A DNA stretch of 64,000 nucleotides from Paracoccus sp. M683 (GTDB lineage Bacteria > Pseudomonadota > Alphaproteobacteria > Rhodobacterales > Rhodobacteraceae), in NCBI RefSeq assembly GCF_007096355.1, contig NZ_VKDF01000005.1:393778-457777 (forward strand), read 5' to 3'. Each line of letters begins with the position of its first letter. Positions within the stretch are counted from its first letter, which is position 1. The translations under genes and the position numbers were made by a program. The notes under the pieces were generated by a model. It was not told the origin of the DNA. It worked only from the letters and a program-made list of their open reading frames with translations, and ran no database searches. Shown here piece by piece: positions 30,051 to 45,112 of this stretch.

Positions 30051-30114
30051 GCATGTTAAAATGTTGTTTTGTATTGTTAAATAGGCATGCCTTGAGCGTG
30101 CGCTGCGTTTTTGG

Positions 30115-30143: not shown

Positions 30144-30168
30144 GTATACATGCTGGGAGAAGTGGGCA

Positions 30169-30200: not shown

Positions 30201-30246
30201 CGTTTCTCGCTCGTGCGGGCAGAACACGAGGCGGGGCAGTATCTGA

Positions 30247-30669
30247 ATGAACGATATGGAGTGGGGCGGGGCTGACACCCCCGAGGGGCCGTTCGCGGCA
30301 ATCGAAAACGTGCCCGAAACCGACCGCAAGGCGGTTCGGGCCGCAATCGAGCGGGCTTTGACGCCCAATGATCTGGACGAGGTGAATTTCGCCTCGTCGC
30401 TGCTGTGGAGCTATGTCGCCGATCTGGAACGCGATTGGCGGGCCATGAAGGCCGGTGACCAGGTCGCGCTGGACGCCGACGCCCTGAAGAAGGCGGTGAA
30501 GTCGGCCAAGGACGTGCGCGAGGCGCTCGACCATCTGAAACAGGAAAGGATGAAGGTTGACAAACTTCGCAAGGACATTGCCGGCGGGGTCGGAGGAGGG
30601 TGCCTCGACCTTGATGCCGCAAGAGATGAGATCGGGCGCAGACTGGCTTGCCTGCGCCGCGCAGGATGA
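30247..30669 (+). CDS. GTA g1, small terminase
   Basis: A 140-aa soluble, helical protein at the head of the cluster, in the position of g1 of the Rhodobacter capsulatus GTA, which is reported to act as the small terminase subunit that recruits DNA to TerL. The central part (KAVRAAIERALTPNDLDEVNFASSLLWSYVADLERDWR) and the coiled-coil-like stretch EALDHLKQERMKVDKLRKDI are the visible features. The 3' end overlaps g2, indicating coupling. The assignment rests mainly on position and size. Confidence 0.75.
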   Translation: MNDMEWGGADTPEGPFAAIENVPETDRKAVRAAIERALTPNDLDEVNFASSLLWSYVADLERDWRAMKAGDQVALDADALKKAVKSAKDVREALDHLKQERMKVDKLRKDIAGGVGGGCLDLDAARDEIGRRLACLRRAG

Positions 30670-31972
30670 GGTGGACGAATTTCTGGGCGGGCTTAGCGAG
30701 AATGCGCTGTTGAGCCTGCCCTGGCTGTTCGAGTTCTGGGCCTTGCCGCATCAGTTGCCGCCAGAAGGCGACTGGAAAAGCTGGGTGATCATGGGCGGGC
30801 GCGGTGCGGGCAAAACCCGCGCCGGGTCCGAATGGGTGCGGCGGATGGTCGAGGGGCCGACCGCCGCCGCACCGGGGAAATGCCATCGTGTCGCGCTGGT
30901 GGGGGAAACCTTCAACCAGGCGCGCGAGGTGATGGTGATGGGGGAAAGCGGCATTTTGGCCTGCTCTCCCCCGGATCGGCGGCCGGTCTGGGAGGCCGGG
31001 CGGCGGCGGCTGGTCTGGGCCAATGGGGCGACGGCGACGGTCTATTCGGCGCATGAGCCGGAGGCGCTGCGGGGGCCTCAGTTCGATGCGGCCTGGGTGG
31101 ATGAACTGGCCAAGTGGAAGAAGGCCGAGGATGTCTGGGACATGCTGCAATTCGCATTGCGGTTGGGCGAGCATCCCCAGCAGGTGATCACCACGACGCC
31201 GCGCAATGTCGGGGTGCTGAAGCGGATATTGGGAAATGCCAGCACGGTGACGACCCATGCGCCAACGGATGCGAACCGGGCCTATCTGGCGGAAAGCTTT
31301 CTGGCCGAGGTGGCGGAACGCTATGGCGGGACGCGGCTGGGGCGGCAGGAGCTGGACGGGGTGCTGCTGGACGATGTCGAGGGGGCGCTGTGGACCACGG
31401 CGATGCTGGAAGGCTGCCGGGTAGAGGTGGCGCCGAAGCTTTCGCGGGTTGTCGTGGCAGTTGATCCGGCAGTCACCGGGGGCAAGGCCAGCGATGAATG
31501 CGGGATCGTGGTGGCCGGTGTTGTGAGCGATGGCGAGCCGGGCAATTGGCGCGGCTATGTGCTGGAGGATGCGACGGTCAAGGGCGGGCCTTTGGACTGG
31601 GCGCGGGCGGCCATCGCGGCGATGGATCGGCATGGGGCCGAGCGGCTGGTGGCCGAGGTGAACCAGGGCGGCGATCTGGTGGAAAGCGTGATCCGGCAGG
31701 TGGACCCTCTGGTGCCGTTCCGGGGTTTGCGGGCGGCGCGTGGCAAGGGGTTGCGGGCCGAGCCGGTGGCCGCGCTTTATGAACAGGGGCGGATCAAGCA
31801 TCTGCGCGGCGGCAATCTGGGGGCGCTGGAGGATCAGCTGTGCCAGATGACGGTGCGCGGGTTCGAGGGGCGTGGTTCGCCCGACCGGCTGGATGCGATG
31901 GTCTGGGCCATGCATGAGCTGATGATCGAGCCGGCGGCGGGGTATCGGCGGCCGCAGATGCGGCAGCTGTGA
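30626..31972 (+). CDS. GTA g2, large terminase (packaging ATPase/nuclease)
   Basis: The motor that fills GTA capsids with host DNA. From the ATG at 30626 it is 448 aa. Walker A is GGRGAGKTRAGSEW (residues about 43-56), Walker B is in QFDAAWVDELAKW, and the C-terminal RNase H-like nuclease begins VVVAVDPAVTGG with Asp residues typical of TerL nucleases. MRSGADWLACAAQDEVDEFL resembles the N-terminus of GTA terminases, so I prefer it to the ATG at 30614 or TTG at 30557. It overlaps g1 by 44 bases. No break is present, so packaging could be functional. Confidence 0.95.
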   Translation: MRSGADWLACAAQDEVDEFLGGLSENALLSLPWLFEFWALPHQLPPEGDWKSWVIMGGRGAGKTRAGSEWVRRMVEGPTAAAPGKCHRVALVGETFNQAREVMVMGESGILACSPPDRRPVWEAGRRRLVWANGATATVYSAHEPEALRGPQFDAAWVDELAKWKKAEDVWDMLQFALRLGEHPQQVITTTPRNVGVLKRILGNASTVTTHAPTDANRAYLAESFLAEVAERYGGTRLGRQELDGVLLDDVEGALWTTAMLEGCRVEVAPKLSRVVVAVDPAVTGGKASDECGIVVAGVVSDGEPGNWRGYVLEDATVKGGPLDWARAAIAAMDRHGAERLVAEVNQGGDLVESVIRQVDPLVPFRGLRAARGKGLRAEPVAALYEQGRIKHLRGGNLGALEDQLCQMTVRGFEGRGSPDRLDAMVWAMHELMIEPAAGYRRPQMRQL

Positions 31973-31978
31973 GGGTAG

Positions 31979-32032
31979 CCGGGGGCGCTTCGCCCCCCGG
32001 ACCCCCAGAGGATATTTGGATCAAAGCGAGGG
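31979..32032 (+). repeat. Interspersed intergenic repeat, copy 2, inside the GTA cluster
   Basis: A strong hairpin (CCGGGGGCG TT CGCCCCCCGG type) is followed by ACCCCCAGAGGATATTTGG and ATCAAAGCGAGG. The last 20 bases are the same as in the copy at 54311. It separates the terminase gene from the portal gene and lies in the direction of transcription. Confidence 0.8.
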
Positions 32033-32084
32033 GCCGTGCCGGTGGGTGCGGCCCTTTTTCGTGGGAAAGTGCAGGAGGCGAAGG

Positions 32085-33269
32085 ATGGCGTTTCGATTGT
32101 TTTCGCGGGAGGGCAAGGCCGATCCCGTGGTGGAAAAGAAGGCCAGCGCGACGGGGCGGGTCGTGGCATTCGCCAGCGGCTCGGGCCGGGTGGCGTGGTC
32201 GGCGCGGGATACGGGATCGCTGACGCGGGGCGGCTTTGTCGGCAATCCGATCGGGTTCCGCTCGGTTCGGTTGATTGCCGAGGCTGCGGCGGCGGTTCCG
32301 CTGATCTGTCAGGACCGGGAACGCCGCTATGAGACGCATCCGGTCGTTGATCTGTTGCGCCGGCCCAATCCGGGGCAGGGGCGGGCAGAGCTGTTCGAGG
32401 CGCTGTTCGGGCAGTTGCTGCTGTCGGGGAACGGCTATCTTGAGGCGGTCGGGCTGGGGCCGGATGGGTTGCCAGAGGAACTGCATGTTCTGCGCTCGGA
32501 TCGGATGAACATTGTGCCGGGTGCTGACGGTTGGCCGGTGGCATTTGAATATGCGGTTGGCGGGCGCAAGCACCGGTTCGACATGACCGGCAGTCCCGAT
32601 CCGATTTGCCATATCAAGAGCTTTCATCCGCAGGATGACCATTACGGGCTGTCGCCGATGCAGGCGGCTGCGGTGGCGCTGGATGTGCATAACAGCGCCT
32701 CGGCCTGGTCCAAGGCGTTGTTGGACAATGCGGCGCGGCCCTCGGGGGCGATCGTCTATAAGGGCGTGGACGGGCATGGCAGCCTGTCGCCCGATCAATA
32801 CGACCGGCTGGTCTGCGAGATCGAGGCGAACCATCAGGGCGCGCGGAATGCCGGGCGTCCGATGTTGCTGGAAGGGGGGCTTGACTGGAAGCCCATGGGG
32901 TTCAGCCCGAGCGACATGGAATTCCATGAGACCAAGCTGGCCGCCGCACGAGAGATCGCCCTGGCCTTTGGGGTGCCGCCGATGCTGCTGGGGATTCCCG
33001 GCGATGCGACCTATGCCAACTATGCCGAGGCGCATCGGGCTTTCTATCGGTTGACGGTTCTGCCGCTGGTGACGCGGGTGGCGGCTTCGGTGGCCTGGTG
33101 GCTGAGCGAGCATCAGGGCACCGAGGTCGATCTGCGGCCCGATCCCGATGGTGTGCCGGCGCTGGCGGCCGAGCGTGACCAGCAATGGCAGCGGATTGGC
33201 GGTGCCAGCTTTCTGACCGATGCGGAGAAGCGGGCGCTGCTGGGCCTGCCGCCGTTGGCAGATGGATGA
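32085..33269 (+). CDS. GTA g3, portal protein (HK97 family)
   Basis: A 394-aa portal that forms the DNA gate at the capsid vertex. Recognisable blocks are HPVVDLLRRPNPGQ, LFGQLLLSGNGYLE, HIKSFHPQDDHYGLSPMQAA, AIVYKG and the FGVPPMLLGIPGDATYANYAEA motif of HK97-type portals. The ATG at 32085 has a good AGGAGG ribosome-binding site eleven bases upstream; longer in-frame extensions run into the repeat element. The stop overlaps the g3.5 start by eight bases. Confidence 0.95.
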   Translation: MAFRLFSREGKADPVVEKKASATGRVVAFASGSGRVAWSARDTGSLTRGGFVGNPIGFRSVRLIAEAAAAVPLICQDRERRYETHPVVDLLRRPNPGQGRAELFEALFGQLLLSGNGYLEAVGLGPDGLPEELHVLRSDRMNIVPGADGWPVAFEYAVGGRKHRFDMTGSPDPICHIKSFHPQDDHYGLSPMQAAAVALDVHNSASAWSKALLDNAARPSGAIVYKGVDGHGSLSPDQYDRLVCEIEANHQGARNAGRPMLLEGGLDWKPMGFSPSDMEFHETKLAAAREIALAFGVPPMLLGIPGDATYANYAEAHRAFYRLTVLPLVTRVAASVAWWLSEHQGTEVDLRPDPDGVPALAAERDQQWQRIGGASFLTDAEKRALLGLPPLADG

Positions 33270-33510
33270 TCTGGGCATGGAGGGCGCGCGCTTTACCAAG
33301 GACGCCTATGGTTGGCACGACCAGCGGTTTGCTGCGCAGGAGCGCATCATGGCGCTGCAATTCGGTGCGGTCGAAAAGCGGTTGGAGAAGATCGAATCGC
33401 TGATCGAAGGATTGGAAAAGCGGCTGTGGATGACGGTTTACGGCGTGGTCGCCGTGATCCTGACGCAGGCCGTGCAGGGTATTCTGGAATTTGCGCCGAA
33501 AGGGGGCTGA
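33262..33510 (+). CDS. GTA g3.5, small membrane-type protein
   Basis: An 82-aa protein with an amphipathic/coiled-coil N-terminal half (RIMALQFGAVEKRLEKIESLIEGLEKRL) and one C-terminal hydrophobic helix (MTVYGVVAVILTQAVQGIL). It corresponds in place to the small gene between portal and protease in RcGTA. The function is unknown; the layout resembles small phage hemolysin XhlA-like proteins. The start overlaps the portal stop. Confidence 0.75.
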   Translation: MDDLGMEGARFTKDAYGWHDQRFAAQERIMALQFGAVEKRLEKIESLIEGLEKRLWMTVYGVVAVILTQAVQGILEFAPKGG

Positions 33511-33513
33511 GGC

Positions 33514-34044
33514 ATGGATCTGGGGCTGGAGTTGAAATTCGCGGGCGGCGCGCCGGTGCTGACCGAAGGATCGGTGATCGAGGGCTATGCCAGTCTGTTC
33601 GGGCTGACCGATCAGGGAGGCGATGCGGTGATGCCGGGTGCTTTTGCCGCAAGCCTGAAGAAGTTGGCGGCCAAGAGCGACAAGGTGCGGATGCTGTGGC
33701 AGCACGATCCGACGCGCCCCATCGGTGTCTGGGACGAGATCCGTGAGGATGAGCGGGGGCTGTGGGTCAAGGGGCGGCTTTTGCCCGAGGTGGCGCAGGC
33801 ACGCGAGGCGGCAGCGCTGATTCAGGCGGGCGCCATTGACGGGCTGTCGATCGGCTATCGCACCATCCGCGCCACACGCGACCAGAAGGGGCGTCGGATG
33901 CTGGCCGAGGTGGAGCTGTGGGAGGTATCGCTGGTGACCTTCCCGATGCTGCCCGAGGCCAAGGTCGGGCGCAAGGCGGCCGAGGATCTGCTGGAAATGG
34001 CGGCTGTTTTTGCGGCGGCGACCGAGGCGTTGCGGGCCGAGTAA
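33514..34044 (+). CDS. GTA g4, prohead protease (HK97 family)
   Basis: A 176-aa herpesvirus/HK97-type serine protease that trims the capsid protein during head maturation. The blocks EGYASLFGLTDQGGDAVMPGAFAASL, VRMLWQHDPTRPIG (catalytic His region), GLWVKGRLL and the IDGLSIGYRTI serine motif fit the family, as does EVSLVTFPMLPEAKV. The start is three bases after the g3.5 stop. A 131-base gap with a REP-like palindrome follows before the capsid gene. Confidence 0.93.
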   Translation: MDLGLELKFAGGAPVLTEGSVIEGYASLFGLTDQGGDAVMPGAFAASLKKLAAKSDKVRMLWQHDPTRPIGVWDEIREDERGLWVKGRLLPEVAQAREAAALIQAGAIDGLSIGYRTIRATRDQKGRRMLAEVELWEVSLVTFPMLPEAKVGRKAAEDLLEMAAVFAAATEALRAE

Positions 34045-34050
34045 GCGTTT

Positions 34051-34070
34051 GGTGCGTGCGAGCACGCACC
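34051..34070. repeat. REP-like palindrome between GTA protease and capsid genes
   Basis: GGTGCGTG-CGAG-CACGCACC, a perfect eight-base-pair stem with a four-base loop, followed by CTAAGGG. It has the look of the widespread short palindromic repeats of Rhodobacteraceae intergenic regions. It lies seven bases after the g4 stop and could protect or separate the transcript around the highly expressed capsid gene. Confidence 0.7.
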
Positions 34071-34175
34071 CTAAGGGATTGGCGCGGTGTCGCGCCTGAC
34101 AGGGTTCGGGTCGCGCGGGGGCGCGGTTCGGCAAAGGGGCGGCATCGCCCAGATCATCGTGATGAGGAGACATCA

Positions 34176-35339
34176 ATGACCGAGGTGAAAGCCGCGGCCG
34201 GGGAAGACATGCCCGGAGAGCTTAAAGGGGCGATGCTTGGGTTCGTAAGTGAACTCAAGCTGTTCCGTGATGACATTCAGAAAAAACTTCAAGCACAGGA
34301 CGAACGTATGACCATGCTCGATCGCAAGACCGCCCTTCGTGGCCGCAGCCCTCTGTCGACCAATGCCGAGGTCGAGGTGCCGCATCAGAAGGCGTTCAAT
34401 GCCTATCTGCGCCGCGGTGATGATGACGGGCTGCGTGGCCTGGTGATCGAGGAAAAGGGCCTTACGGTCGCCAGCGATGGTGGTTTCCTGGCCGCGCCGG
34501 TGGTGGCAGAGACCGTGCAGAACGTGCTGCGCAGTGGTGCCTCTCTGCGCAAGCTGGCCAATGTGGTGACGGTCGAAAGCGGCAGCTATGAGGTGCTGGT
34601 CGACAAGGGCGATCTGAGTGCCGGCTGGGCGACCGAGGCCAACGCGACCGAGACCGGCACCTCGGGGATCGAGCGGATCAGCATTCCGGTGCACGAACTG
34701 TCGGCCATGCCGAAAGCCAGCCAGCGGCTGCTGGATGATGCGGCATTCGACGTCGAGGCCTGGCTGGCCGAACGCATCGCTGACAAGTTCGCGCGGGCCG
34801 AGGCGGGTGCATTCATCAACGGTGACGGCATCGACAAGCCGCGCGGCATTCTGTCCTATCCGACCGCCGAAACGGGCTCCGAGGCTGAAGGCCAGATCGG
34901 CTTTGTCGCAAGCGGCAGCATGGGTGGTTTCGACCCGGCCAGCCCGGCGGATGCGCTGATCGACCTGGTTTATGCGTTGGGTGCCGAATACCGGGCCAAT
35001 GCGAGCTTCGTGATGAACTCGAAAACGGCGGGGGTCGTGCGCAAGATGAAGGATGTGGACGGGCGCTTCCTGTGGACGGATTCGATCGCGGCCGGCCAGC
35101 CGGCGCAGCTGCTGGGTTATCCCGTGCTGATCAGCGAGGACATGCCTGATATGGACATCGACTCGCTGTCGGTGGCCTTTGGTGATTTCCACGCCGCCTA
35201 TACGGTGGTCGAGCGTCCTGACCTGCGCGTGCTGCGTGATCCGTTCAGCGCCAAGCCGCATGTGCTGTTCTATGCCACCAAGCGCGTCGGCGGCGGTGTC
35301 ACCGATTTCCGTGCCGTGAAGTTGATGAAATTCGCCTGA
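34176..35339 (+). CDS. GTA g5, major capsid protein (HK97 fold)
   Basis: A 387-aa HK97-type capsid protein. The N-terminal delta-like region (residues about 1-75) is helical (FVSELKLFRDDIQKKLQAQDER) and should be removed by the g4 protease. The core follows with GLTVASDGGFLAAPVVAETV, KASQRLLDDAAFDVEAWLAERIADKFARAEAGAFINGDG (typical GTA/HK97 E-loop and spine region), FVMNSKTAGVVRKMKD and the C-terminal DPFSAKPHVLFYATKRVGG. The ATG at 34176 has GAGGAG upstream. Confidence 0.96.
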   Translation: MTEVKAAAGEDMPGELKGAMLGFVSELKLFRDDIQKKLQAQDERMTMLDRKTALRGRSPLSTNAEVEVPHQKAFNAYLRRGDDDGLRGLVIEEKGLTVASDGGFLAAPVVAETVQNVLRSGASLRKLANVVTVESGSYEVLVDKGDLSAGWATEANATETGTSGIERISIPVHELSAMPKASQRLLDDAAFDVEAWLAERIADKFARAEAGAFINGDGIDKPRGILSYPTAETGSEAEGQIGFVASGSMGGFDPASPADALIDLVYALGAEYRANASFVMNSKTAGVVRKMKDVDGRFLWTDSIAAGQPAQLLGYPVLISEDMPDMDIDSLSVAFGDFHAAYTVVERPDLRVLRDPFSAKPHVLFYATKRVGGGVTDFRAVKLMKFA

Positions 35340-35447
35340 TCCGGGATCGGGCGAAGGGGGCTGCGCAACACGCGCCGGGCCGACCGGCAAGATTGTCCGC
35401 GCGCGCTGAGGACCGGCGCGCGGGCGCGGCCCCCACATGCAACGGTT

Positions 35448-35464
35448 CCGCCCGATCGGGGCGG
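35448..35464 (+). terminator. Weak hairpin after the GTA capsid gene
   Basis: CCGCCC-GATCG-GGGCGG, six base pairs, about 110 bases after the capsid stop and within the 176-base gap before g6. There is no immediate T-run (GGCCTTTGCG follows), so partial termination or an RNA-processing site is more likely than full termination. Confidence 0.35.
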
Positions 35465-35515
35465 GGCCTTTGCGATGATTTTCAGACGGAACGGCAGCAG
35501 GGGAAGGTTCGGGAC

Positions 35516-36133
35516 ATGATGCTGATCGAGGAAACGGCGCCTGCGGCGGAGGCGCTGCCTGTCGCCGCGTTGCGTGACCATCTGCGGCTGGGTTCGGGTT
35601 TTGGCCAGGCCGAGGACGAAGCAGAAAACACGGCGCTTGCAGGTTTTCTGCGGGCGGCAATCGCGACGATTGAGGCGCGAACGGGCAAGGTGCTGCTGAT
35701 GCGGCGCTTTCGCATGCAGTTGGACGATTGGCGTGACCGGCTGGGCCAGACCCTGCCTTTGGCGCCAGTGATTGCGGTCGAGCGGATCGAAATCGACGAC
35801 GGGGCAGGCACGGTGACCGAGCTGCCGGTTGAAAGCTGGCGGCTGATCGGCGATCTGCAACGTCCGATGATCCTGCCGGTCGGGGTGATCCTGCCGAATG
35901 TGCCGCGACTGGGATCGGTGACGGTGACCTTCACCGCCGGTTTTGGTGCCGATTGGGCCTCGGTTCCGGCCGATCTTGCGCAGGCGGTATTGATCCTGGC
36001 CACCCGCTATTACGAGGATCGCAGCCTGTCCGGCGGCAAATCGGCGCTGCCTTTCGGGGTCAGCGCACTGATCGAAAGCTGGCGGGCCGTGCGTACGCTG
36101 GCCGGGCGTGGTTCTGCGCGGGAGCGGCGGTGA
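35516..36133 (+). CDS. GTA g6, head-tail adaptor
   Basis: A 205-aa protein of the phage gp6-like head-tail connector (phiE125 gp8-type) group. The N-terminal LPVAALRDHLRLGSGFGQAEDE and NTALAGFLRAAIATIEARTGK helices are the family hallmark, and the C-terminal half is beta-rich. It attaches beneath the portal. The ATG codons at 35516 and 35519 are both possible, with GGGAAGG upstream. The stop overlaps the g7 start (TGATG). Confidence 0.9.
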   Translation: MMLIEETAPAAEALPVAALRDHLRLGSGFGQAEDEAENTALAGFLRAAIATIEARTGKVLLMRRFRMQLDDWRDRLGQTLPLAPVIAVERIEIDDGAGTVTELPVESWRLIGDLQRPMILPVGVILPNVPRLGSVTVTFTAGFGADWASVPADLAQAVLILATRYYEDRSLSGGKSALPFGVSALIESWRAVRTLAGRGSARERR

Positions 36134-36471
36134 TGGCTGAGCCGGTCCTGAATGTGCCGTTGCTGCTGGAGGCGCCGCAGCGGCAGGGCGATGGGTTGGG
36201 TGGCAACCGCGTCGATTGGCAGCCCTTGGGCAAACTGTGGGCCGAGATGCGGGCAGGGTCGGGGCGAGAGCGTCGGGGCCAGGCAGGGGCGCAGAGTGTG
36301 GTTGCCTGGCGGATCACGATCCGTGCGGCAGCCCATGGTGATCCGCGCCGACCTCGACCCGAGCAGCGGTTGAGGCTGGGTGCGCGGGTCTTTCGGATCG
36401 ACGCGGTGGCCGAGCGCGATCCCGATGGCCGCTATCTGGTCTGCTTTGCGCGAGAGGAGAACCTGTCATGA
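36133..36471 (+). CDS. GTA g7, head closure/stopper protein
   Basis: A 112-aa beta-barrel-like protein of the phage head closure family (SPP1 gp16-like): VPLLLEAPQRQGDGLGG, WQPLGKLWAEMRAG, WRITIRAA and LRLGARVFRIDAVAERDPDGRYLVCFARE all fit. It seals the portal-adaptor channel after packaging. It is coupled to g6 by a one-base overlap and to g8 by a four-base overlap. Confidence 0.87.
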   Translation: MAEPVLNVPLLLEAPQRQGDGLGGNRVDWQPLGKLWAEMRAGSGRERRGQAGAQSVVAWRITIRAAAHGDPRRPRPEQRLRLGARVFRIDAVAERDPDGRYLVCFAREENLS

Positions 36472-36887
36472 GTTATGCGGCAAGCGTCGCCTTGCAGGCG
36501 GCCGTCTATCAGCATCTGCGGGCCGACGCGGTGCTGGCTGATCTGGTTGGTGACGCGATCTTTGATGCGATGCCTGCCTCGGTTCCAAGCGGGATCTATG
36601 TCTCGTTGGGGCCCGAGGATGCGCAGGATGCGGGCGATATGACGGCTGCCGGATCGCGTCACGATTTCGTCGTGTCGATTCTGTCGGGCAGCGATGAAAG
36701 CGATGGCTTCGGTGCGGTGAAGCAGGTCGCAGCCGCCGTCAGCGATGCGCTGGAGGCAGGCGAGTTGCTGCTCGACCGTGGGTATATGGCGGGGCTTTGG
36801 TTCCTGCGCGCACGGGCGCGGCGGGTGGAAAACGGTGCGGCGCGGCGGGTCGATCTGACCTTTCGCGCCCGGATTGATCTGGGCTGA
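36468..36887 (+). CDS. GTA g8, tail terminator (DUF3168)
   Basis: A 139-aa DUF3168 protein: the N-terminal LQAAVYQHLRADAVLADLVG, YVSLGPEDAQDAGDMTAAGSRHDFVVSILSG and the C-terminal RRVDLTFRARIDL are diagnostic. In the R. capsulatus GTA structure this position is the tail terminator that joins tail tube to head. It overlaps the g7 stop by four bases and precedes g9 by 11 bases. Confidence 0.9.
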   Translation: MSYAASVALQAAVYQHLRADAVLADLVGDAIFDAMPASVPSGIYVSLGPEDAQDAGDMTAAGSRHDFVVSILSGSDESDGFGAVKQVAAAVSDALEAGELLLDRGYMAGLWFLRARARRVENGAARRVDLTFRARIDLG

Positions 36888-36898
36888 GGAGAGAAAAA

Positions 36899-37312
36899 AT
36901 GGCAGTGCAGAACGGGCGTGATCTGCTGATCAAGATGGACATGATAGGTGATGGGACCTTTGTGACGATTGGGGGGCTGCGGGCCTCTCGTCTGGCGTTC
37001 AACGCCGAGACGGTCGACGTCACCAGTCTGGAAAGCCAGGGCGGCTGGCGCGAGCTTCTGGGCGGCGCGGGGGTGCGCAGCGCCTCGATCTCGGGTTCGG
37101 GCGTGTTTCGCGATGCCGATACGGATGGCCGCGCGCGACAGGTGTTCTTTGACGCAGAAGTGCCGCGTTTTCAGGTCGTGATCCCCGATTTCGGCGTCGT
37201 CGAGGGGCCGTTCCAGATTACCGGCCTGGAATATGCGGGCAGCTATAACGGCGAGGCGACCTATGAGATGTCGATGGCCTCGGCCGGTGCGCTGAGCTTC
37301 GAGCCGCTGTGA
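36899..37312 (+). CDS. GTA g9, major tail tube protein
   Basis: A 137-aa tail tube protein starting MAVQNGRDLLIKMD and containing the TVDVTSLESQGGWRELLGGAGVRSASISGSGVF block shared by GTA and phage major tail proteins of the TP901-1-like group. It stacks as rings to form the tube. A GAGAGAAAAA leader precedes the ATG. The stop overlaps the g10 start (TGATG). Confidence 0.93.
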   Translation: MAVQNGRDLLIKMDMIGDGTFVTIGGLRASRLAFNAETVDVTSLESQGGWRELLGGAGVRSASISGSGVFRDADTDGRARQVFFDAEVPRFQVVIPDFGVVEGPFQITGLEYAGSYNGEATYEMSMASAGALSFEPL

Positions 37313-37626
37313 TGGTGAACCCGATGCGCGGCGAGGTTGCGATCACACTGGATGGTCAGCCACATGTGGCGCGGCTGACCCTTGGTGCGCTGGCGGAACT
37401 TGAGGCGGATCTGGGCAGCGAAAGCCTGCTGGCGGTCGTCGAGCGGTTTGAGGGCGGTGGCTTCACCTCGCGCGATGTGCTTGCGGTTCTTGTCGCCGGG
37501 TTGCGGGGTGCGGGGTGGCAAGGAACCGCCGCAGATCTGATGTCAGTCGAGTTCGGGGGTGGGCCGATGGGGGCGGCGCGGGCGGCGGCAGAGCTGCTGG
37601 CCCGCGCCTTCCGGCTGGAACCATGA
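37312..37626 (+). CDS. GTA g10 family protein (tail assembly chaperone)
   Basis: A 104-aa protein of the GTA-gp10 family (gene transfer agent family protein): GEVAITLDGQPHVARLTLGALAELEADLGSESLLAVVERFE and FTSRDVLAVLVAGLRGAGW are the conserved parts. It probably acts as the first half of the tail assembly chaperone pair that loads on the tape measure. The ATG at 37312 overlaps the g9 stop; a GTG at 37309 is an alternative. It overlaps g10.1 by four bases. Confidence 0.88.
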   Translation: MVNPMRGEVAITLDGQPHVARLTLGALAELEADLGSESLLAVVERFEGGGFTSRDVLAVLVAGLRGAGWQGTAADLMSVEFGGGPMGAARAAAELLARAFRLEP

Positions 37627-37835
37627 AAGCGCCATCTGACGCAGGCGATGACCGGCCGCGCGGGCTGGATTGGTCGGGGTTGATGCGGGCTGGGATCCGT
37701 GGGCTTGGCCTTCGCCCGGCCGAGTTCTGGGCGCTGACCCCGGCCGAGCTGGCATTGATGCTGGGCGTCGAGTCCGGCCCGCCCGCTATGACGCGCGATC
37801 GCCTTGCCGAGATGGCGGCGCGCTATCCCGACTGA
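37623..37835 (+). CDS. GTA g10.1, small tail assembly chaperone
   Basis: A 70-aa protein matching the short phage tail assembly chaperone found after g10 in GTA clusters: LDWSGLMRAGIRGLGLRPAEFWALTPAELALMLG (the family core) and MTRDRLAEMAARYPD at the end. It overlaps g10 by four bases and precedes the tape measure gene, as chaperones do in tailed phages. No slippery frameshift sequence is needed because it has its own start. Confidence 0.88.
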   Translation: MKAPSDAGDDRPRGLDWSGLMRAGIRGLGLRPAEFWALTPAELALMLGVESGPPAMTRDRLAEMAARYPD

Positions 37836-37884
37836 CCGCCAGGTCGCCGGGAGCAACATCTATTCAGGAAGCGAGGACCGTTTG

Positions 37885-38541
37885 ATGGCGGACAATAACG
37901 GATTCGCGGCCGGGCTTGACCGGCTGGACGAAGATTTCGATCAGGCCGGCGCGATGACGGCCGCATTCGAGGCAGAGTTGTCGCGGCTGCGGCAGTCGAT
38001 GATGTTCACCAGTCGCGAGGTCGGCACGCTGTCGGGCGGGCTGGAACGGGGGCTGCGCCGCGCTTTTGACGGTCTGGTTTTCGACGGGATGAAACTCTCC
38101 GACGCCCTGCGCGGGCTGGCGCGGTCGATTTCGGACACCATTTTCTCGATCGCGATGAAGCCGGTCGAGCAGGCGTTGGCCGGCAGTCTGGCGCAAGGTC
38201 TCGGCGGCATGGTCTCGGGTGCGATGCCATTTGCGAATGGCGGTGCATTCGTCCAAGGGCGGGTGATGCCTTTTGCCAAGGGCGGTGTCGTCAGCCAGCC
38301 CACGCATTTTCCGATGCGCGGTGCGACCGGTTTGATGGGCGAGGCCGGCCCCGAGGCGATCATGCCTCTGCGCCGTGGTGCGGATGGCCGGCTTGGTGTT
38401 GCGGCTGCTGGCGGTGGAGCCCGTGCGGTCAATGTCACGATGAATATCACCACGCCAGATGTGGGCGGGTTCCGGCGCAGTCAGTCGCAGATCGCGGCGC
38501 AACTGGGTCGCGCGATGGCGCGCGGCGAACGCAACGGCTGA
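37885..38541 (+). CDS. GTA g11, short tape measure protein
   Basis: A 218-aa tape measure protein. The N-terminal half is helical (FAAGLDRLDEDFDQAGAMTAAFEAELSRL), then a hydrophobic stretch, then the glycine-rich FANGGAFVQGRVMPFAKGGVVSQPTHFP and GLMGEAGPEAIMPLRRGADGRLGV motifs typical of tape measure C-termini. The short length agrees with the short tail of GTA particles. The ATG at 37885 was chosen because upstream codons are in the g10.1 gap. Confidence 0.93.
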   Translation: MADNNGFAAGLDRLDEDFDQAGAMTAAFEAELSRLRQSMMFTSREVGTLSGGLERGLRRAFDGLVFDGMKLSDALRGLARSISDTIFSIAMKPVEQALAGSLAQGLGGMVSGAMPFANGGAFVQGRVMPFAKGGVVSQPTHFPMRGATGLMGEAGPEAIMPLRRGADGRLGVAAAGGGARAVNVTMNITTPDVGGFRRSQSQIAAQLGRAMARGERNG

Positions 38542-38557
38542 ATCAGAGGGCGGGCAG

Positions 38558-39190
38558 ATGGCATTTCATGATGTAAGGTTTCCGACGAACCTGTCCTTTG
38601 GGTCGGTCGGCGGCCCCGAGCGGCGATCCGAGATCGTCACGCTTGCCAACGGATACGAAGAACGCAACTCGCCCTGGGCGCATTCGCGTCGCCGCTATGA
38701 TGCGGGGATGGGGTTGCGTTCCCTGGATGATGTACAGGCATTGTTGGCTTTTTTTGAGGCACGAGCCGGGCAGTTACATGGTTTCCGGTGGAAGGATTGG
38801 TCCGATTGCAAAAGCGGCGGCGCCGTGGCCGAGCCCGCATTTGACGATCAGACGATCGGGCATGGCGATGGGGTGCAGACGCGCTTTCAGTTGATCAAGG
38901 CTTATGTTTCGGGCGCGACGCGATACGAGCGGCCAATCACCAAGCCGGTTCGCGATACGGTGCGCGCAGGCGTTGGTGGTGTCGAGATGTTCCCCGGATT
39001 GGGCTATACGGTCGACCGCCACAAGGGGCTGATCACATTCGATACCGCCCCGGCCAGCGGTGCCGAGATTACCGCAGGATACGAGTTCGATGTTCCGGTG
39101 CGGTTCGATACCGACCGGATCGCGGTGTCGATGGCGTCTTTCCATGCCGGTGACATGCCTCAGGTGCCAGTGGTGGAGATCAGGGTATGA
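38558..39190 (+). CDS. GTA g12, distal tail protein (DUF2460)
   Basis: A 210-aa DUF2460/TIGR02217-type protein: FHDVRFPTNLSFGSVGGPERRSEIVTLANGYEERNSPWAHSRRRYDAG at the N-terminus, LLAFFEARAGQLHGFRWKDW in the middle, GYTVDRHKGLITFDTAPASGAEITAGYEFDVPVRFDTD near the C-terminus. All are diagnostic. In the GTA particle this ring caps the tail tube and holds the baseplate. It overlaps g13 by four bases. Confidence 0.95.
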   Translation: MAFHDVRFPTNLSFGSVGGPERRSEIVTLANGYEERNSPWAHSRRRYDAGMGLRSLDDVQALLAFFEARAGQLHGFRWKDWSDCKSGGAVAEPAFDDQTIGHGDGVQTRFQLIKAYVSGATRYERPITKPVRDTVRAGVGGVEMFPGLGYTVDRHKGLITFDTAPASGAEITAGYEFDVPVRFDTDRIAVSMASFHAGDMPQVPVVEIRV

Positions 39191-40086
39191 GCACGACGAC
39201 ATTGGCACGCGCTTGGTCCATCAGCCGCAAGGATGGGCTGGTTCTGGGCTTTACCGACCATGATCGCAGCATGATGTTCGAAAAGATCCGCTTTCGCCCA
39301 GATAGCGGCCTGACTGCTAGGGCGATCGTGCAGGCCTCGGGGCTGTCGGTCGACAATACCGAGGCCGAAGGGGCGTTGACCGATGATGCCATCACCGAGA
39401 CGGATCTGATGGCAGGATTGTGGGACGGGGCCGAGTTGCGGATGTGGGAGGTTGACTGGACTGACACAATGGCGCGCAAATTGCTGTTCCGCGGCAGTCT
39501 GGGTGAGGTCTCACGCTCTGGCGGTGCATTCAGGGCTGAATTGCGAGGGCTGTCCGAAACGCTGAATCAGGCACGCGGGCGCCGCTATCATCCGCGCTGC
39601 TCGGCGGTTCTTGGTGATGGGCAATGTCGCGTCGACTTGGCTCACCCTTCGGTGCGTGGCGAGGCTGCGATCGAAGTCGTTCAGGACGAGACACGTCTGA
39701 TCATCGCACCGATTGGCGCATTTTCAGATAACTGGTTCGAGCGCGGCACGGTCGAGGTTCTGTCGGGACCGGCCACCGGTATGCGCGGACAGGTGAAGAA
39801 CGACCACCGGCTGCCGGGTGGTGGCCGGATGCTGGATCTGTGGGCGTCGTTGGGTCGAGCCCCTGAACCGGGTGATATGTTGCGGGTAACCGCCGGTTGC
39901 GACAAGCATGCGGCGACCTGTCGTGCAAAATTCGCAAATTTCCTGAATTTCAGGGGCTTTCCGCATCTGCCAAGCGAGGACTGGCTTTTGTCGCCAGACA
40001 AGGCGCCGCGTCATCCTGACATCAAGTTTACCGTTGATCCGTCCGATATTCGCGACATGTTCAACATTGGAGGGCGCGATGACTGA
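39187..40086 (+). CDS. GTA g13, tail hub protein (DUF2163) with four-cysteine cluster
   Basis: A 299-aa DUF2163 protein: LVLGFTDHDRSM near residue 20, then TDDAITETDLMAGLWDGAELRMWEVDW, and a C-terminal phage-BR0599-like domain. Cys138, Cys147, Cys238 and Cys245 (HPRCSAVLGDGQC and AGCDKHAATC) are positioned to bind an iron-sulphur cluster, as reported for the hub of the R. capsulatus GTA. It overlaps g12 and g14 by four and eight bases. Confidence 0.93.
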   Translation: MSTTTLARAWSISRKDGLVLGFTDHDRSMMFEKIRFRPDSGLTARAIVQASGLSVDNTEAEGALTDDAITETDLMAGLWDGAELRMWEVDWTDTMARKLLFRGSLGEVSRSGGAFRAELRGLSETLNQARGRRYHPRCSAVLGDGQCRVDLAHPSVRGEAAIEVVQDETRLIIAPIGAFSDNWFERGTVEVLSGPATGMRGQVKNDHRLPGGGRMLDLWASLGRAPEPGDMLRVTAGCDKHAATCRAKFANFLNFRGFPHLPSEDWLLSPDKAPRHPDIKFTVDPSDIRDMFNIGGRDD

Positions 40087-40543
40087 ACGGATCGCTGCCC
40101 TCGCGCGGGGCTGGCTTGGGACGCCCTATGTCCATCAGGCCAGTGTTCAGGGCGCCGGAACGGATTGCCTGGGACTGATCCGAGGCGTGTGGCGGGCGCT
40201 TTATGGGGCTGAACCGGAACCAGTTCCGCCCTATTCGCCAGATTGGGGTGAAGCCGGGCGGGACGAGGTGCTGATGGCCGGTGCTATACGCCACCTTTGC
40301 GTTGTTCCCGACCATCAGCCAGACGCGCCAGGTCAGGTCCTGCTGTTTCGCATGCGTGATGGCGCGATCGCCAAGCATCTGGGCATTCTGACAGCGACCG
40401 ATCCGCAGCCCAGTTTTGTGCATGCCTATGATCGCCATGGAGTGATTGAGAGCCCGCTGTGCGGACCCTGGCGTACCCGGGTCGTGCGACGCTTTCGTTT
40501 TCCCTGCGACGATTTTAACGGAGATCCCTCATGGCAACATTAG
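40079..40543 (+). CDS. GTA g14, NlpC/P60 cell-wall peptidase
   Basis: A 154-aa papain-like NlpC/P60 domain that would cut recipient peptidoglycan during DNA delivery. The catalytic Cys30 is in GTDCLGL, with His100 (AKHLGIL) as the base and His115 downstream; LARGWLGTPYVHQASVQG is the usual start. All catalytic residues are present. The ATG at 40079 overlaps the g13 stop, and the 3' end overlaps g15 by 13 bases. Confidence 0.94.
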   Translation: MTERIAALARGWLGTPYVHQASVQGAGTDCLGLIRGVWRALYGAEPEPVPPYSPDWGEAGRDEVLMAGAIRHLCVVPDHQPDAPGQVLLFRMRDGAIAKHLGILTATDPQPSFVHAYDRHGVIESPLCGPWRTRVVRRFRFPCDDFNGDPSWQH

Positions 40544-43500
40544 TTCTGTCCGCCGTTGGAGCATCGGTCGGCGCGGGCTTTGGTGGTGCATTTCTTGGCC
40601 TGTCGGGTGCTGTCATCGGCCGGGCCATCGGCGCGACGATCGGCCGTGCAATAGATCAGCGTCTGCTGGGCGGCGGGTCCAAAGCGGTCGAGACGGGTCG
40701 GATCGACCGGTTGCGTTTGCAGACCGCAGGTGAGGGAATGCCTATCCCACGTCTCTGGGGCCAGATGCGGCTGCCTGGGCATGTCATCTGGGCCTCGCCG
40801 CTGGAGGAGATTCGTCAAAGCCAGGGTGCTGGCAAGGGCGCCCCCAAGCCACAGGTTACCGAGATCAGCTATCAACTTTCGGTCGCGCTTGCCCTGTCCG
40901 AAGGGCGCGTGTTGGGCGTCGGCCGTATCTGGGCCGATGGCGAAGAGATCGCGGCCGAAGACCTGAACATGCGCGTTTATCGTGGCAGTGAAACGCAGCT
41001 GCCGGATCCCGCCATTGCGGCCCATGAGGGCGAGGATGCGCCGGCCTACCGTGGTATCGCCTATGTGGTGCTGGAAAACCTGAGCCTGGCACGTTGGGGC
41101 AATCGGATGCCTCAACTGAGTTTCGAGGTGACTTGCGCGGCACAGGACGGATCCGGTTTGGCGGGCGATGTGCAGGCCGTGGCGATGATTCCGGGCACAG
41201 GGGAGTATTCGTTGGCCACCTCGCAGGTGATGCGCGAATACGGAATGTTCCAGCAGCGCGTCAGCAACGTCAATACACCTGCCGGCGGCACCGATTTCGC
41301 CGTCAGCCTGCGCAGCCTACGGCGCGAATTGCCGAATGTCGGTTCGGTGTCGCTTGTTGTGTCGTGGTTCGGTGACGACCTGCGGATCGGTCACTGCAGT
41401 GTTCAGCCCAAGGTCGAGCATGCCGGCGAAGGCGGCTATGACATGGAATGGCGCGCCGGCGGTATCGGGCGGGCGGCCGCAGCCGAGATCACCCGTGTCG
41501 ACGAGAGGCCGATCTATGGTGGAACCCCGTGCGATCAGTCGGTCATCGAGGCCTTGCAGGCGATCGCGGCGACCGGGCGCAAGGCTGTGTTCTATCCCTT
41601 TATCCTGATGGAGTTGGTTGCCGGGAACGGGCGGCCCGATCCCTATGGCAATCCCGAGCAGCCCGTCATGCCCTGGCGTGGCAGGATCACGACGTCGAAA
41701 GCCCCAGGGCGCGTGGGCACGACCGATGGAACTGCCGCCGCAAGGGCCGAGGTCGACGCATTTTTCGGCGCAGCCAGGGCAAGTGATTTCAGTGTGGTCA
41801 ATGGCAGTATCCATTATGCTGGACCTGCCGAATGGTCCTATCGCCGCTTTATTCTGCATTATGCGCATCTGTGTGCCTTGGCGGGAGGGGTCGATGCCTT
41901 TCTGATCGGGTCCGAAATGGTCGCCATGACGCAGATTCGTGGCGCGGGCCGCAGCTATCCGGCGGTCGAGCAGCTTCGCCGCCTGGCGGCCGATGTGCGC
42001 GCGATCCTTGGGCCCGAGGTCAAGTTGAGCTATGCCGCAGACTGGTCCGAGTATTTCGGCCATCATCCCGGCGATGGTGAAGCGATGTTCCATCTTGACC
42101 CGCTTTGGGCCGATCCGAATATCGACTTCATCGGTATCGACAATTACATGCCGATGTCCGATTGGCGCGATGGCAGCGACCACCTGGATGCATATTGGAA
42201 GCGGATCGACAATCACGCCTATTTGCTGTCGAACGTATCAGGTGGCGAAGGATATGATTGGTACTATGCCAATGACGATGATCGCGATCAGCAAAGGCGG
42301 ACGCCCATCCGTGACGGTGCCTATGGCGAAGACTGGGTCTGGCGCTACAAGGATCTGAAAGGCTGGTGGCAGAATCCGCATTTCAACCGGCCCGGAGGTG
42401 TGCGCTCGGAAGAGGCGACTGAATGGGTGCCCGGATCAAAGCCGTTCTGGTTCACCGAGATCGGCTGCGCGGCGCTGGACAAGGGGACGAACCAGCCGAA
42501 CAAGTTCCTCGATGCGATGAGTTCGGAGAGCCGGCTGCCGCATTACTCGAATGCGCGCCGCGATGACGGGATTCAGACAGCCTATATCCGGGCGATGGCG
42601 GCCTATTGGTCCGATCCTGCCAGCAATCCGGCGATGGCGGATGGTCGCCGGATGGTCGATGTATCCCGTGCCCATGTCTGGTGTTGGGACGCACGGCCCT
42701 ATCCGGCTTTCCCTCAGCGGCTGGATCTATGGAGCGATGGCCTCGCCTGGGAAAGGGGGCATTGGCTGAACGGTAGGGCCGGAACCGTGCCATTGGCCAG
42801 CGTCGTGGGTGATATCTGTCGGAGGGCCGGAATCCTGGCATTCGACACCAGCGGCTTGTCAGGAACGGTGCGCGGCTATGTGTTGGCCGGCGATGAAACC
42901 GGTCGGGCCGCCTTGCAGCCGCTGATGCTGGCGCATGGGTTCGACGCGGTTGAAAGAGACGGCGCCCTGCGTTTTGTCATGCGCAATGGCTTGCCTGTTG
43001 CGGATTTGGGTCCCGAGCATCTGGCCTTGGCGGATGACATCGCGGGTTTCGAGGCCAGCCGGGCTGCCGAGCCCGAATTGGCAGGGCGCATCCGCTTGAC
43101 ACATGTCGAGGCCGGCTCGGACTTTGCGCCCTGCACGGCCGAGACGATGTTGCCTGGTGACGATCCGATGGCAGTTTCGGACAGCGAGTTTCCGATGGCA
43201 TTCACCCGCTCCGAAGGGCGGGCCATTGCCGAGAGATGGTTGGCTGAATCGCGAATAGCGCGCGATTCAGCCCGTTTCGCGCTGCCTCCTTCGCTGTCGC
43301 ATCTTGGTGCGGGCGACGTGGTGCGGATGCAGGGCAGCAATGGACACAAGCATCTGTGGAGGATCGACCGCGTCGAGCGGGCGGGTGCGCTGACGGTCGA
43401 TGCCGTCCGTGTCGAGCCGGGCGTTTACGTGCCGGCGCTTGCAACCGAGATCAGCGGCTCGGTCAAGGCCTATCGGCCGCATCTGCCAGTGTGGCCGGTG

Positions 43501-44412
43501 TTTCTGGACCTGCCGCTGATGCGTGGCGACGAAGTGCCGCATGCGCCCTATGTGGCGGCAAGCGGGAAGCCTTGGCCGGGGCGGGTCGCGACATTCCTTT
43601 CGCCCGACGAGACTGGCGGTTTCGAGCTGGATGTGATGATGCGCAGGCCCGCCATTATGGGACTGACGGAAAGCCCGCTAAGGGCGGCACGTCCGGGCAT
43701 GATGGATCGCGGCGCGCCCTTGCGGCTGCGGCTGAATCAGGGCGAGCTGCGCTCGATCGGGCAGCCGGCATTGCTGAATGGCGGCAACCTGCTGGCCATT
43801 GGTGACGGCAGTTCGAACCGGTGGGAACTGCTGCAATTCGTTCACGCGGTGCCGGTCGAGCCGGGGCTTTGGGACATTAGCCATCGCTTGCGTGGGCAGG
43901 CGGGAACGGATGCGGTCATCCCGGCGGTCTGGCCGATTGGCAGCGCGGCGGTGCTTGTGGATCGTGCGGTCGTGCAGCTTGATCTGCCGCCATCGGTGCG
44001 CGGGCAGGAACGGTTCTGGCGGATCGGACCGGCGGAAAGGCCGGTCGATGATCGCAGCTACAGGTCCGGGGCCATCACGATCCGCAGCGTCGGGCTGCGT
44101 CCCTATTCGCCCTGCCATTTGCGTTGTGAAGGGCGTCAGGTCAGTTGGACGCGGCGCACGCGAATTGATGGCGATGGGTGGGATGGCCCGGATGTGCCAT
44201 TGGGCGAGAACCGGGAACAATACCTGCTGCGGCTGCGGCAGGCGGGTTCGGTCATCCACGAAATGCGGCTGGATCGGCCGGAATATCAGGTGCCACAGTC
44301 CGTCTGGCTGCAAGCCTTGGCGGATGGCGCATTCCACATCGAGGTGGCTCAGCTGTCGGATCAGTTCGGCGCGGGGCCGTTTACCAGGAGGGAAATCAAT
44401 GGCGGTCAATGA
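40531..44412 (+). CDS. GTA g15, megatron tail fibre / host-specificity protein
   Basis: The largest gene of the cluster, 1293 aa. The N-terminus has a glycine-rich hydrophobic stretch (residues about 5-40), then a baseplate-hub part, a GTA TIM-barrel-like glycoside-hydrolase domain at roughly residues 415-720 (GVDAFLIGSEMVAMTQIRG, PNIDFIGIDNYMPMSDWRDG, KPFWFTEIGCAALDKG), and a phage-tail (Phage-tail_3-like) C-terminal half. In RcGTA this protein forms the central fibre that contacts and penetrates the recipient. No frameshift interrupts it. It overlaps g14 and the DUF2793 gene. Confidence 0.95.
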   Translation: MATLVLSAVGASVGAGFGGAFLGLSGAVIGRAIGATIGRAIDQRLLGGGSKAVETGRIDRLRLQTAGEGMPIPRLWGQMRLPGHVIWASPLEEIRQSQGAGKGAPKPQVTEISYQLSVALALSEGRVLGVGRIWADGEEIAAEDLNMRVYRGSETQLPDPAIAAHEGEDAPAYRGIAYVVLENLSLARWGNRMPQLSFEVTCAAQDGSGLAGDVQAVAMIPGTGEYSLATSQVMREYGMFQQRVSNVNTPAGGTDFAVSLRSLRRELPNVGSVSLVVSWFGDDLRIGHCSVQPKVEHAGEGGYDMEWRAGGIGRAAAAEITRVDERPIYGGTPCDQSVIEALQAIAATGRKAVFYPFILMELVAGNGRPDPYGNPEQPVMPWRGRITTSKAPGRVGTTDGTAAARAEVDAFFGAARASDFSVVNGSIHYAGPAEWSYRRFILHYAHLCALAGGVDAFLIGSEMVAMTQIRGAGRSYPAVEQLRRLAADVRAILGPEVKLSYAADWSEYFGHHPGDGEAMFHLDPLWADPNIDFIGIDNYMPMSDWRDGSDHLDAYWKRIDNHAYLLSNVSGGEGYDWYYANDDDRDQQRRTPIRDGAYGEDWVWRYKDLKGWWQNPHFNRPGGVRSEEATEWVPGSKPFWFTEIGCAALDKGTNQPNKFLDAMSSESRLPHYSNARRDDGIQTAYIRAMAAYWSDPASNPAMADGRRMVDVSRAHVWCWDARPYPAFPQRLDLWSDGLAWERGHWLNGRAGTVPLASVVGDICRRAGILAFDTSGLSGTVRGYVLAGDETGRAALQPLMLAHGFDAVERDGALRFVMRNGLPVADLGPEHLALADDIAGFEASRAAEPELAGRIRLTHVEAGSDFAPCTAETMLPGDDPMAVSDSEFPMAFTRSEGRAIAERWLAESRIARDSARFALPPSLSHLGAGDVVRMQGSNGHKHLWRIDRVERAGALTVDAVRVEPGVYVPALATEISGSVKAYRPHLPVWPVFLDLPLMRGDEVPHAPYVAASGKPWPGRVATFLSPDETGGFELDVMMRRPAIMGLTESPLRAARPGMMDRGAPLRLRLNQGELRSIGQPALLNGGNLLAIGDGSSNRWELLQFVHAVPVEPGLWDISHRLRGQAGTDAVIPAVWPIGSAAVLVDRAVVQLDLPPSVRGQERFWRIGPAERPVDDRSYRSGAITIRSVGLRPYSPCHLRCEGRQVSWTRRTRIDGDGWDGPDVPLGENREQYLLRLRQAGSVIHEMRLDRPEYQVPQSVWLQALADGAFHIEVAQLSDQFGAGPFTRREINGGQ

Positions 44413-45112
44413 TACGAACAGGCTGGGCATGCCGCTGCTGCAACCGGCACAGGCGCAGAAACATGTCACGGTAAATGAGGCATTGATGCGTCTGGACGGG
44501 CTGGTGGGGCTGGTGCTGCAAAGCACAAGCAACACCGAGCCGCCCGAGACCGTGATTGACGGACAGTGCTGGAGTGTCGCTGCGGGCGCGAGTGGCGTCT
44601 GGCAGGGGCGGGCAGGGCAGATCGCCATCGGCACGAACGGAGGCTGGGTCTTTCAAGCGCCGAGGGTCGGCATGCGGGCATATGTCGTGGACCAAGGGGT
44701 CGCGTCGATCTATGACGGCAGCCGATGGGCGCCCGGCGCGCTGACGCTTGGTTGGACGGGCGCCGGTCTGCTGGCCGGAATCGCCGAAATGGAAGTCACC
44801 GTTTCGGCAGGTGCCAGCTTTACAACGGATGTGCAGATCCCCGGTGGAGCAATGGTTATCGGCGCAACCGCCCGCGTCAGCCAGGCGCTGACCGGCAGTC
44901 TTGCCACCTGGCAACTGGGCACGCCCGGCGCCGAAAATCGGTTCGGTCAAGGCCTTGGGACGGGTGAGGGCAGCTGGGCACGCGGTATGCTGGGGCAGCC
45001 GGTTACCTATTGGCAGCCCGAAAACCTGGTGATGACCGCAGAAGGTGGCGATTTCGCAACCGGGCGCGTCAAGATTGCGGCTCACTGGCTATCTTTGCGG
45101 CTGCCATCATGA
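44399..45112 (+). CDS. DUF2793 protein at the end of the GTA cluster
   Basis: A 237-aa DUF2793 protein: DTNRLGMPLLQPAQAQKHVTVNEALMRLDGL at the N-terminus and the central PPETVIDGQCWSVAAGASGVWQGRAGQIAI are the family core. The C-terminal beta-rich half may be a capsid- or tail-decoration or receptor-binding domain, as seen in phage tail fibres. It overlaps the g15 stop by 14 bases, so it is part of the GTA transcript. RcGTA of R. capsulatus ends with g15, so this is an extra structural candidate. Confidence 0.85.
   Translation: MAVNDTNRLGMPLLQPAQAQKHVTVNEALMRLDGLVGLVLQSTSNTEPPETVIDGQCWSVAAGASGVWQGRAGQIAIGTNGGWVFQAPRVGMRAYVVDQGVASIYDGSRWAPGALTLGWTGAGLLAGIAEMEVTVSAGASFTTDVQIPGGAMVIGATARVSQALTGSLATWQLGTPGAENRFGQGLGTGEGSWARGMLGQPVTYWQPENLVMTAEGGDFATGRVKIAAHWLSLRLPS

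Follow-up and report, generated by a model that had tools for sequence, protein, structure and literature searches.

How production of gene transfer agents (GTAs) is switched on is not settled. In Rhodobacter capsulatus, GafA binds through its C-terminal part to a fragment that contains the -10, the -35, and the start site, 75 to 125 bp before g1 (PMC9638019). In Caulobacter, the antiterminator GafZ, which is homologous to the C-terminal part of GafA, has its site between the -10 and -35 and works with NusA, NusG, and NusE, and Tran and Le have suggested that R. capsulatus GafA may have an unrecognised antitermination activity (PMC11150451). Here, a 64,000-nucleotide window from the 4.4-Mb genome of Paracoccus sp. 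M683 was analysed, in which positions 30247 to 45112 are an ordinary, complete, and intact GTA cluster of the R. capsulatus type (RcGTA). Its first gene, g1, is preceded by a two-hairpin leader that is apparently undescribed and that, judged from sequence, looks like an on-off switch for particle making.

This leader gives the idea of antitermination by GafA a concrete sequence. An RcGTA-type cluster headed by a conserved leader, with attenuation as the proposed role of that leader, taken as one explanation, is assigned a probability of roughly 0.8. No description of the leader was found in the open-licence literature searched, a search that did not extend to the older RcGTA promoter literature. 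The word terminator is absent from PMC9638019 and PMC6363796, and the word hairpin from PMC9638019.

Promoter and leader upstream of g1

The elements before g1 are as follows.

30022..30050 (30022-30027, 30045-30050), + strand: pair of TGTTGC boxes, possible activator sites, at about -93 and -70 from the -35 hexamer
30115..30143, + strand: predicted sigma-70-like promoter, TTGACT, 17-nt spacer with near-invariant GAACG, TAGAAA
30158..30207, + strand: leader hairpin P1, terminator-like; inner stem 30168-30197, U-tract 30196-30200
30210..30230, + strand: leader hairpin P2; its 3' arm extends into the probable g1 ribosome-binding site

The predicted promoter and the two-hairpin leader RNA together span 30115-30235, and a cluster start at 30247, as given by the sequence-only reading, omits the promoter and leader at 30115-30246. 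The predicted -10 lies 104 to 109 bp before g1 and the predicted -35 lies 127 to 132 bp before it, the latter just outside the 75-to-125-bp span of the R. capsulatus GafA fragment.

Conservation is concentrated in this short segment. Among 27 sequences chosen by pattern, pairwise identity was 0.67 to 0.86 over 30115-30234 versus 0.28 to 0.54 upstream; in the first part of g1 it was 0.16 to 0.61, reaching 0.79 only at 30535-30564. The leader was present in 32 of 33 same-genus relatives, with the 33rd cut before g1, and it stayed with g1 where fabF and mltG were not upstream (G007, G016, and G020). A search pattern for the leader found it in 29 of 35 sources. Two of the misses (L042 and L047) match the covariance model described below, two more (L055 and L064, from G007 and G013) show the leader in longer stretches, and one (L037) is cut by a contig end; the remaining source, from another family (L067), has no leader.

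The TGTTGC boxes were seen in Paracoccus alone. They were found in one of 29 other loci, a locus of the same genus (L176, from G083), and were not seen in the 28 loci of other genera, so they were rejected as a family-wide activator site. A leader peptide was also considered and rejected, as many rows from other genera lack the ATG found in Paracoccus (CAAGCT). Rfam 15 gave no match within 29900-30400 at E values up to 1.

Distribution of the leader

A covariance model was built from 29 Paracoccus leaders and used in two large searches, both with strict filters. Within the family, 179 of the 295 genomes searched gave a match (178 of 294 genera), and the M683 genome gave a single one. In a class-wide draw, it matched 2 of 190 genomes, both from the family, which had 3 members among the rows listed, a listing that excludes 168 non-matching rows. 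Of 268 family genomes with a megatron match, 174 had the leader, as did 5 of the 27 that lacked such a match; 7 of these 27 were assigned by elimination. TerL was directly downstream of the leader in 29 of the 30 best loci, the M683 locus included.

A 26-nt piece of the leader also matched 39 records among 2.9 million viral-database contigs (L206-L244). TerL followed 355 to 529 nt after the leader in every contig with room for it (38 of 38), and the chromosomal gene mltG preceded the leader in 26 of the 39. We take these records to be GTA clusters filed as viruses. One leader found without a megatron match (L201) belongs to a scar that consists of mltG (56% identical), the leader, a C-terminal piece of the fibre (38% identical over residues 110-237), and cysE, the last of these identified by eye.

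Structure and covariation of the leader RNA

A structured RNA element in the leader is well supported, and we consider it close to certain. In the alignment of the 29 Paracoccus leaders, 95.6% of cells pair, and 22 cells are changed on both sides compared with 10.8 in shuffles, a value that none of 500 shuffles reached. Two of five measures in this alignment were reached by shuffles: the number of pairs changed on both sides (6), in 22 of 500, and further pair types, in 87 of 500. In an alignment of 30 loci from 29 genera fitted to the model, 14 of 27 pairs are changed on both sides, with 29 such cells versus 6.0 in shuffles (0 of 500). In both alignments, the shuffle controls leave relatedness among the sequences in place. 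Model-fitted covariation leans toward the structure of the model, hence an independent alignment starting after the promoter was also run; from it, RNAalifold recovered both hairpins, and both partners had changed in 12 of 26 pairs. Compensatory changes occur in both P1 and P2. As a single sequence, the M683 leader folds only moderately better than its shuffles (z = -1.84; P1 alone, -2.27). The leader appears to be a structured cis-regulatory RNA with a fixed place between the promoter and the first gene of one operon.

A proposed attenuator and its alternatives

In the mechanism we propose, transcription would start at the conserved promoter, about 100 nt before g1, and RNA polymerase would at once meet the leader, first the long hairpin with its U-tract (P1) and then the hairpin at the g1 ribosome-binding site (P2). 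P1 would act as an intrinsic terminator and so hold the cluster silent. From its binding site at the promoter, GafA would load onto RNA polymerase and allow it to pass P1 and transcribe the 14 kb of genes in the operon, as GafZ does in Caulobacter. Small tailed particles with random host DNA, as inferred from the family, would be released by lysis genes encoded elsewhere. The proposal is made because R. capsulatus GafA binds the promoter fragment, the homologous GafZ antiterminates, and P1 is terminator-like. Bypass of a promoter-proximal terminator with the help of GafA is put forward tentatively, at somewhat less than even odds. In its broader form, the idea is that an RNA attenuator directly behind the promoter keeps RcGTA-type GTAs switched off throughout the Rhodobacteraceae and that GafA, besides activating, acts as a processive antiterminator; this is equally provisional.

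The terminator-like character of P1 lies in a GC-rich stem followed by a U-tract; read by row, the alignment has TTTTT beyond the stem in 25 of 30. Every leader in the two sets tested had a terminator-like score above 0 (29 of 29 and 30 of 30, with the M683 leader in both sets); with shuffled tails, 19 to 29% of cases did.

A number of observations weigh against the proposal or against its generality. The TTTTT after the P1 stem is interrupted in 5 of 30 rows, and the U-tract is partly paired in the folded leader. Shuffled hairpins carrying the real tail scored above 0 in 95% and 81% of cases, so the terminator score rests mainly on the U-rich tail. RNAalifold run on the Paracoccus-only alignment kept the inner P1 stem but paired the outer P1 strand with the 5' arm of P2, making the outer part of P1 less certain; in this fold as a whole, 2 of 20 pairs are changed on both sides. 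The loop and 5' arm of P2 hardly vary, which hints at specific recognition beyond the needs of a plain terminator. In Caulobacter, the terminator consists of three GC-rich repeats after the first gene, whereas the M683 hairpin lies within the leader before g1 (PMC11150451). The leader was missed in 94 of the 268 megatron-positive family genomes, partly perhaps through the strict filters, and the cluster is disrupted in 7 of 33 same-genus relatives (see below).

Of the alternatives for the leader, the best surviving is a nut- or put-like antitermination element, in which the hairpins would recruit Nus factors or GafA or would act directly on RNA polymerase, so that transcription of the long operon would be completed. 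Two adjacent hairpins stand directly past the predicted start site, the loop sequence (CGTGCGGA) is nearly invariant, and GafZ acts with Nus factors in Caulobacter (PMC11150451), all of which would suit such an element. The GC-rich stem and U-tract of P1 are of the terminator type and speak against it, and we consider it unlikely. A post-transcriptional role, in which P2 would hide the g1 ribosome-binding site and P1 would protect the 5' end of the mRNA, is somewhat less probable again. Its appeal is that in 29 of 30 loci the leader match ends 7 to 15 nt ahead of the g1 start codon, that the 3' arm of P2 runs into GAGAGG, and that compensatory changes are found in P2; such a role would leave the conserved U-tract after P1 unexplained, and a single hairpin at a ribosome-binding site would control TerS alone.

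Gene content of the cluster

Downstream of the leader, all cluster genes are on the + strand in canonical order with zero internal stops. The genes and the conserved downstream flank are as follows.

30247..30669, + strand: g1, small terminase (TerS) by position; homologues at the same place in relatives
30614..31972, + strand: g2, large terminase (TerL); Pfam PF03237, PF17289
32085..33269, + strand: g3, portal; Pfam PF04860
33277..33510, + strand: g3.5, GTA head formation protein, RCAP_rcc01685 family; NCBIfam NF048001
33514..34044, + strand: g4, prohead protease; Pfam PF04586
34176..35339, + strand: g5, HK97 major capsid protein; Pfam, PDB 6tb9/6tba
35516..36133, + strand: g6, head-tail connector; NCBIfam TIGR02215
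36133..36471, + strand: g7, head completion protein; Pfam PF05521
36468..36887, + strand: g8, tail completion protein; Pfam PF11367
36899..37312, + strand: g9, tail tube protein; Pfam PF06199
37312..37626, + strand: g10, GTA-gp10 protein; Pfam PF11836
37623..37835, + strand: g10.1, tail assembly chaperone (TAC); Pfam PF09550
37885..38541, + strand: g11, RcGTA-type tape measure; NCBIfam NF058675
38558..39190, + strand: g12, distal tail protein (DUF2460); Pfam, NCBIfam
39187..40086, + strand: g13, baseplate hub; Pfam PF09931, PF09356
40079..40543, + strand: g14, NlpC/P60 cell wall peptidase; NCBIfam TIGR02219
40531..44412, + strand: g15, megatron (GTA_TIM); Pfam, NCBIfam equivalog, PDB 6tba
44399..45112, + strand: tail fibre (DUF2793, Rcc00171 family), 237 aa; Pfam, structure model, neighbourhood survey
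45191..46018, + strand: cysE (serine acetyltransferase), conserved downstream flank; Pfam, neighbourhood survey

Every cluster product except g1 was named by Pfam or NCBIfam. The g1 product had zero matches in the Pfam, NCBIfam, and PDB searches and is called TerS because of its position and its homologues in relatives. Megatron and capsid aligned over nearly their full lengths with the solved RcGTA chains (1556 bits for megatron against 6tba; 521 bits for capsid against 6tb9/6tba), and the GTA-specific families RcGTA_tape and rcc01685 head protein were both present in NCBIfam. TerL contains GGRGAGKT and g14 contains TDCLGL, which we take to be the TerL Walker motif and the catalytic motif of the g14 peptidase. 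The sequence-only reading had described a complete RcGTA-type cluster in canonical order with intact frames, and both the frames and the assigned families bear this out. It had also reported no integrase, repressor, replication, or holin gene, and Pfam and NCBIfam likewise found none of these families among the 18 cluster products; the lysis genes are at another locus of the genome (L161).

Selection, cluster loss, and the prophage question

The cluster genes are under purifying selection in Paracoccus. The Nei-Gojobori method was applied to 10 independent same-genus species pairs (8 to 10 pairs per gene), and each of the 19 genes tested, the 18 cluster genes and cysE, had a dN/dS below 1 in every pair. 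Mean values were 0.14 for TerL, 0.16 for portal, 0.12 for tail tube, 0.24 for capsid, 0.20 for megatron, 0.26 for the fibre, and 0.53 for g1, with 0.13 for the comparison gene cysE; the method is a simple one, and its dS estimates are uncertain where genes are GC-rich. The calculation left out the G002 capsid, the G034 fibre, and five genes of G030, and one of its pairs uses G034, in which the cluster is disrupted. The maintained frames had earlier been taken to imply selection, with dN/dS named as the check, and the values agree.

Among same-genus relatives, the cluster is usually kept and is lost now and then. Its state was covered in 33 of 36 relatives (G017, G026, and G033 were left out). 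All 19 genes were intact, with lengths of at least 85% of the reference, in 21 of the 33, including G005, where the megatron frame ends about 310 nt early. Five more failed the length rule only through start choice, unknown bases, or a contig end, and the seven with disrupted clusters are G001, G002, G018, G021, G030, G032, and G034. Deletions lie within the cluster in L059 (G002), L065 (G034), L063 (G021), and L066 (G018); in G002 a deletion joins the capsid and megatron frames, and in G034 the megatron and fibre frames are joined. Outside this set, in L143 (Defluviimonas aestuarii), just about 2.7 kb separates the leader from the fibre downstream, which leaves no room for most of the cluster. 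In L086 (P. zeaxanthinifaciens), the fibre stands beside cysE without a megatron; a transposase suspected there by eye had no Pfam match.

The GTA cluster is at a fixed chromosomal position. Upstream, mltG and fabF were found in 9 of 12 relatives, and cysE was directly downstream in 67 of 80 loci (the best 80 of 565 confirmed matches, a survey of named loci that is also used for the fibre below).

A decaying or still mobile prophage would account for the disruptions in 7 of 33 relatives and for the homologous baseplate genes carried by phages. Set against it are the purifying selection on every cluster gene, the fixed flanks mltG and cysE, the lack of any integrase, repressor, or replication family among the 18 products, and the failure to find the leader at the phage-like loci of the M683 genome, which together make a prophage very improbable. 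The megatron at one of those phage-like loci (C10) reaches 1848 bits against NF048004, the GTA megatron equivalog, compared with 1737 for the GTA's own megatron, and NF048004 is therefore not diagnostic of GTA versus phage.

The tail fibre

DUF2793 is the family of the RcGTA tail fibre, Rcc00171 (PMC8265664, PMC10883770). In the M683 product, the domain is near the N-terminus (residues 25-110, 104.4 bits in Pfam), and the 14-nt overlap noted earlier between g15, which ends at 44412, and the DUF2793 gene, which starts at 44399, is real. The idea that this is an extra, recently added gene that alters host recognition has in its favour that the gene is outside the structural cluster in R. capsulatus, as the sequence-only reading had correctly said, but it is hardly credible given that the gene directly follows megatron in 79 of 80 loci (Paracoccus, Phaeovulum, Defluviimonas, Albidovulum, and metagenome-assembled genomes [MAGs]; the best 80 of 565), adjoins megatron-like genes in related phages, and accompanies megatron at two phage-like loci of the M683 genome itself. 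Those two loci, L001/L068 (C5) and L002/L070 (C10), carry fibres of 358 and 641 aa, respectively, counted from the first ATG. The suggested part in recognition stands in another form: the protein probably takes part in it as an ordinary RcGTA fibre, not as an addition.

The structure model of the fibre (mean pLDDT, 80.1; residues 1-36 below 50), examined for the rod, knob, and foot domains of Rcc00171, shows helices at the N-terminus, a portion in beta structure, and a beta-sandwich at the C-terminus. DUF2793 fibre genes of several phages, and chain S of PDB 8gtc, carry the annotation "ribonuclease III," apparently an error passed on from record to record. The gap between fibre and cysE is 52 to 89 nt in same-genus relatives and about 350 nt in Phaeovulum, several Defluviimonas, Albidovulum, and some MAGs (L106, L119, L126, L142-L145, L148, L149, and L151).

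Other GTA loci in the genome

As judged by place and domains, a GafA-like activator, a lysis cassette, and a TspA-like tailspike appear to lie elsewhere in the M683 genome. A holin-associated N-acetylmuramidase followed by a GTA_holin_3TM protein (PF11351) forms the lysis cassette at its separate locus. Directly before this endolysin-holin cassette is a perfect TTAA-N7-TTAA (L161:7393-7407), presumably a CtrA-type site, with 0.01 expected by chance in the locus. Since gafA adjoins lipA and tspA adjoins lysS in published descriptions (PMC6363796 and PMC13420450, respectively), these neighbours identify two more candidates: a 395-aa protein with helix-turn-helix and DUF6456 matches that precedes lipA and is GafA-like, and a 778-aa pectate-lyase-like protein that follows lysS and resembles the TspA tailspike. 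A search for GafA via Bac_DnaA_C gave a single genome match, taken as DnaA itself, and the GafA-like gene was located beside lipA instead. A CtrA site of the published form, 65 to 71 bp before gafA, was not seen in the upstream stretch examined.

If the attenuator proposal is true, the leader would be the master switch of particle production and would provide a signature, at the level of nucleotides, by which GTAs can be told from phages. As a marker, it could allow GTA clusters filed as viruses to be recognised.

Comparison with known systems

The M683 cluster shares with RcGTA of R. capsulatus (6tba, 6tb9) its gene order, capsid, megatron, tape measure, and head protein, as well as a layout over several loci, in which the GafA-like, lysis, and TspA-like genes lie apart from the cluster. 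It differs in the fibre, which has 371 aa in R. capsulatus (PMC7296036) and is encoded there at another locus (PMC13420450), compared with 237 aa and a place inside the cluster in M683, and no leader RNA has been described for RcGTA as far as the surveyed portions of the literature go. The baseplate and fibre of Dinoroseobacter phage vB_DshS-R4C (PDB 8gtc) belong to a phage and are 37% identical; the rmsd is 12.0, so domains may sit at another angle.

Attenuation of the Q or AlpA type, close to the promoter, uses a protein family other than that of GafA, and termination at the M683 leader is a prediction only; the arrangement proposed here, a promoter-loaded antiterminator with a terminator close downstream, is the same (PMC11150451). 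The Caulobacter system of GafYZ and terGTA differs in the sequence of the promoter spacer, where M683 lacks the Caulobacter palindrome. GafA is homologous to GafY plus GafZ, the Caulobacter activator site likewise falls between the -10 and -35, and a terminator, predicted here, would stand ahead of most of the cluster in both (PMC11150451).

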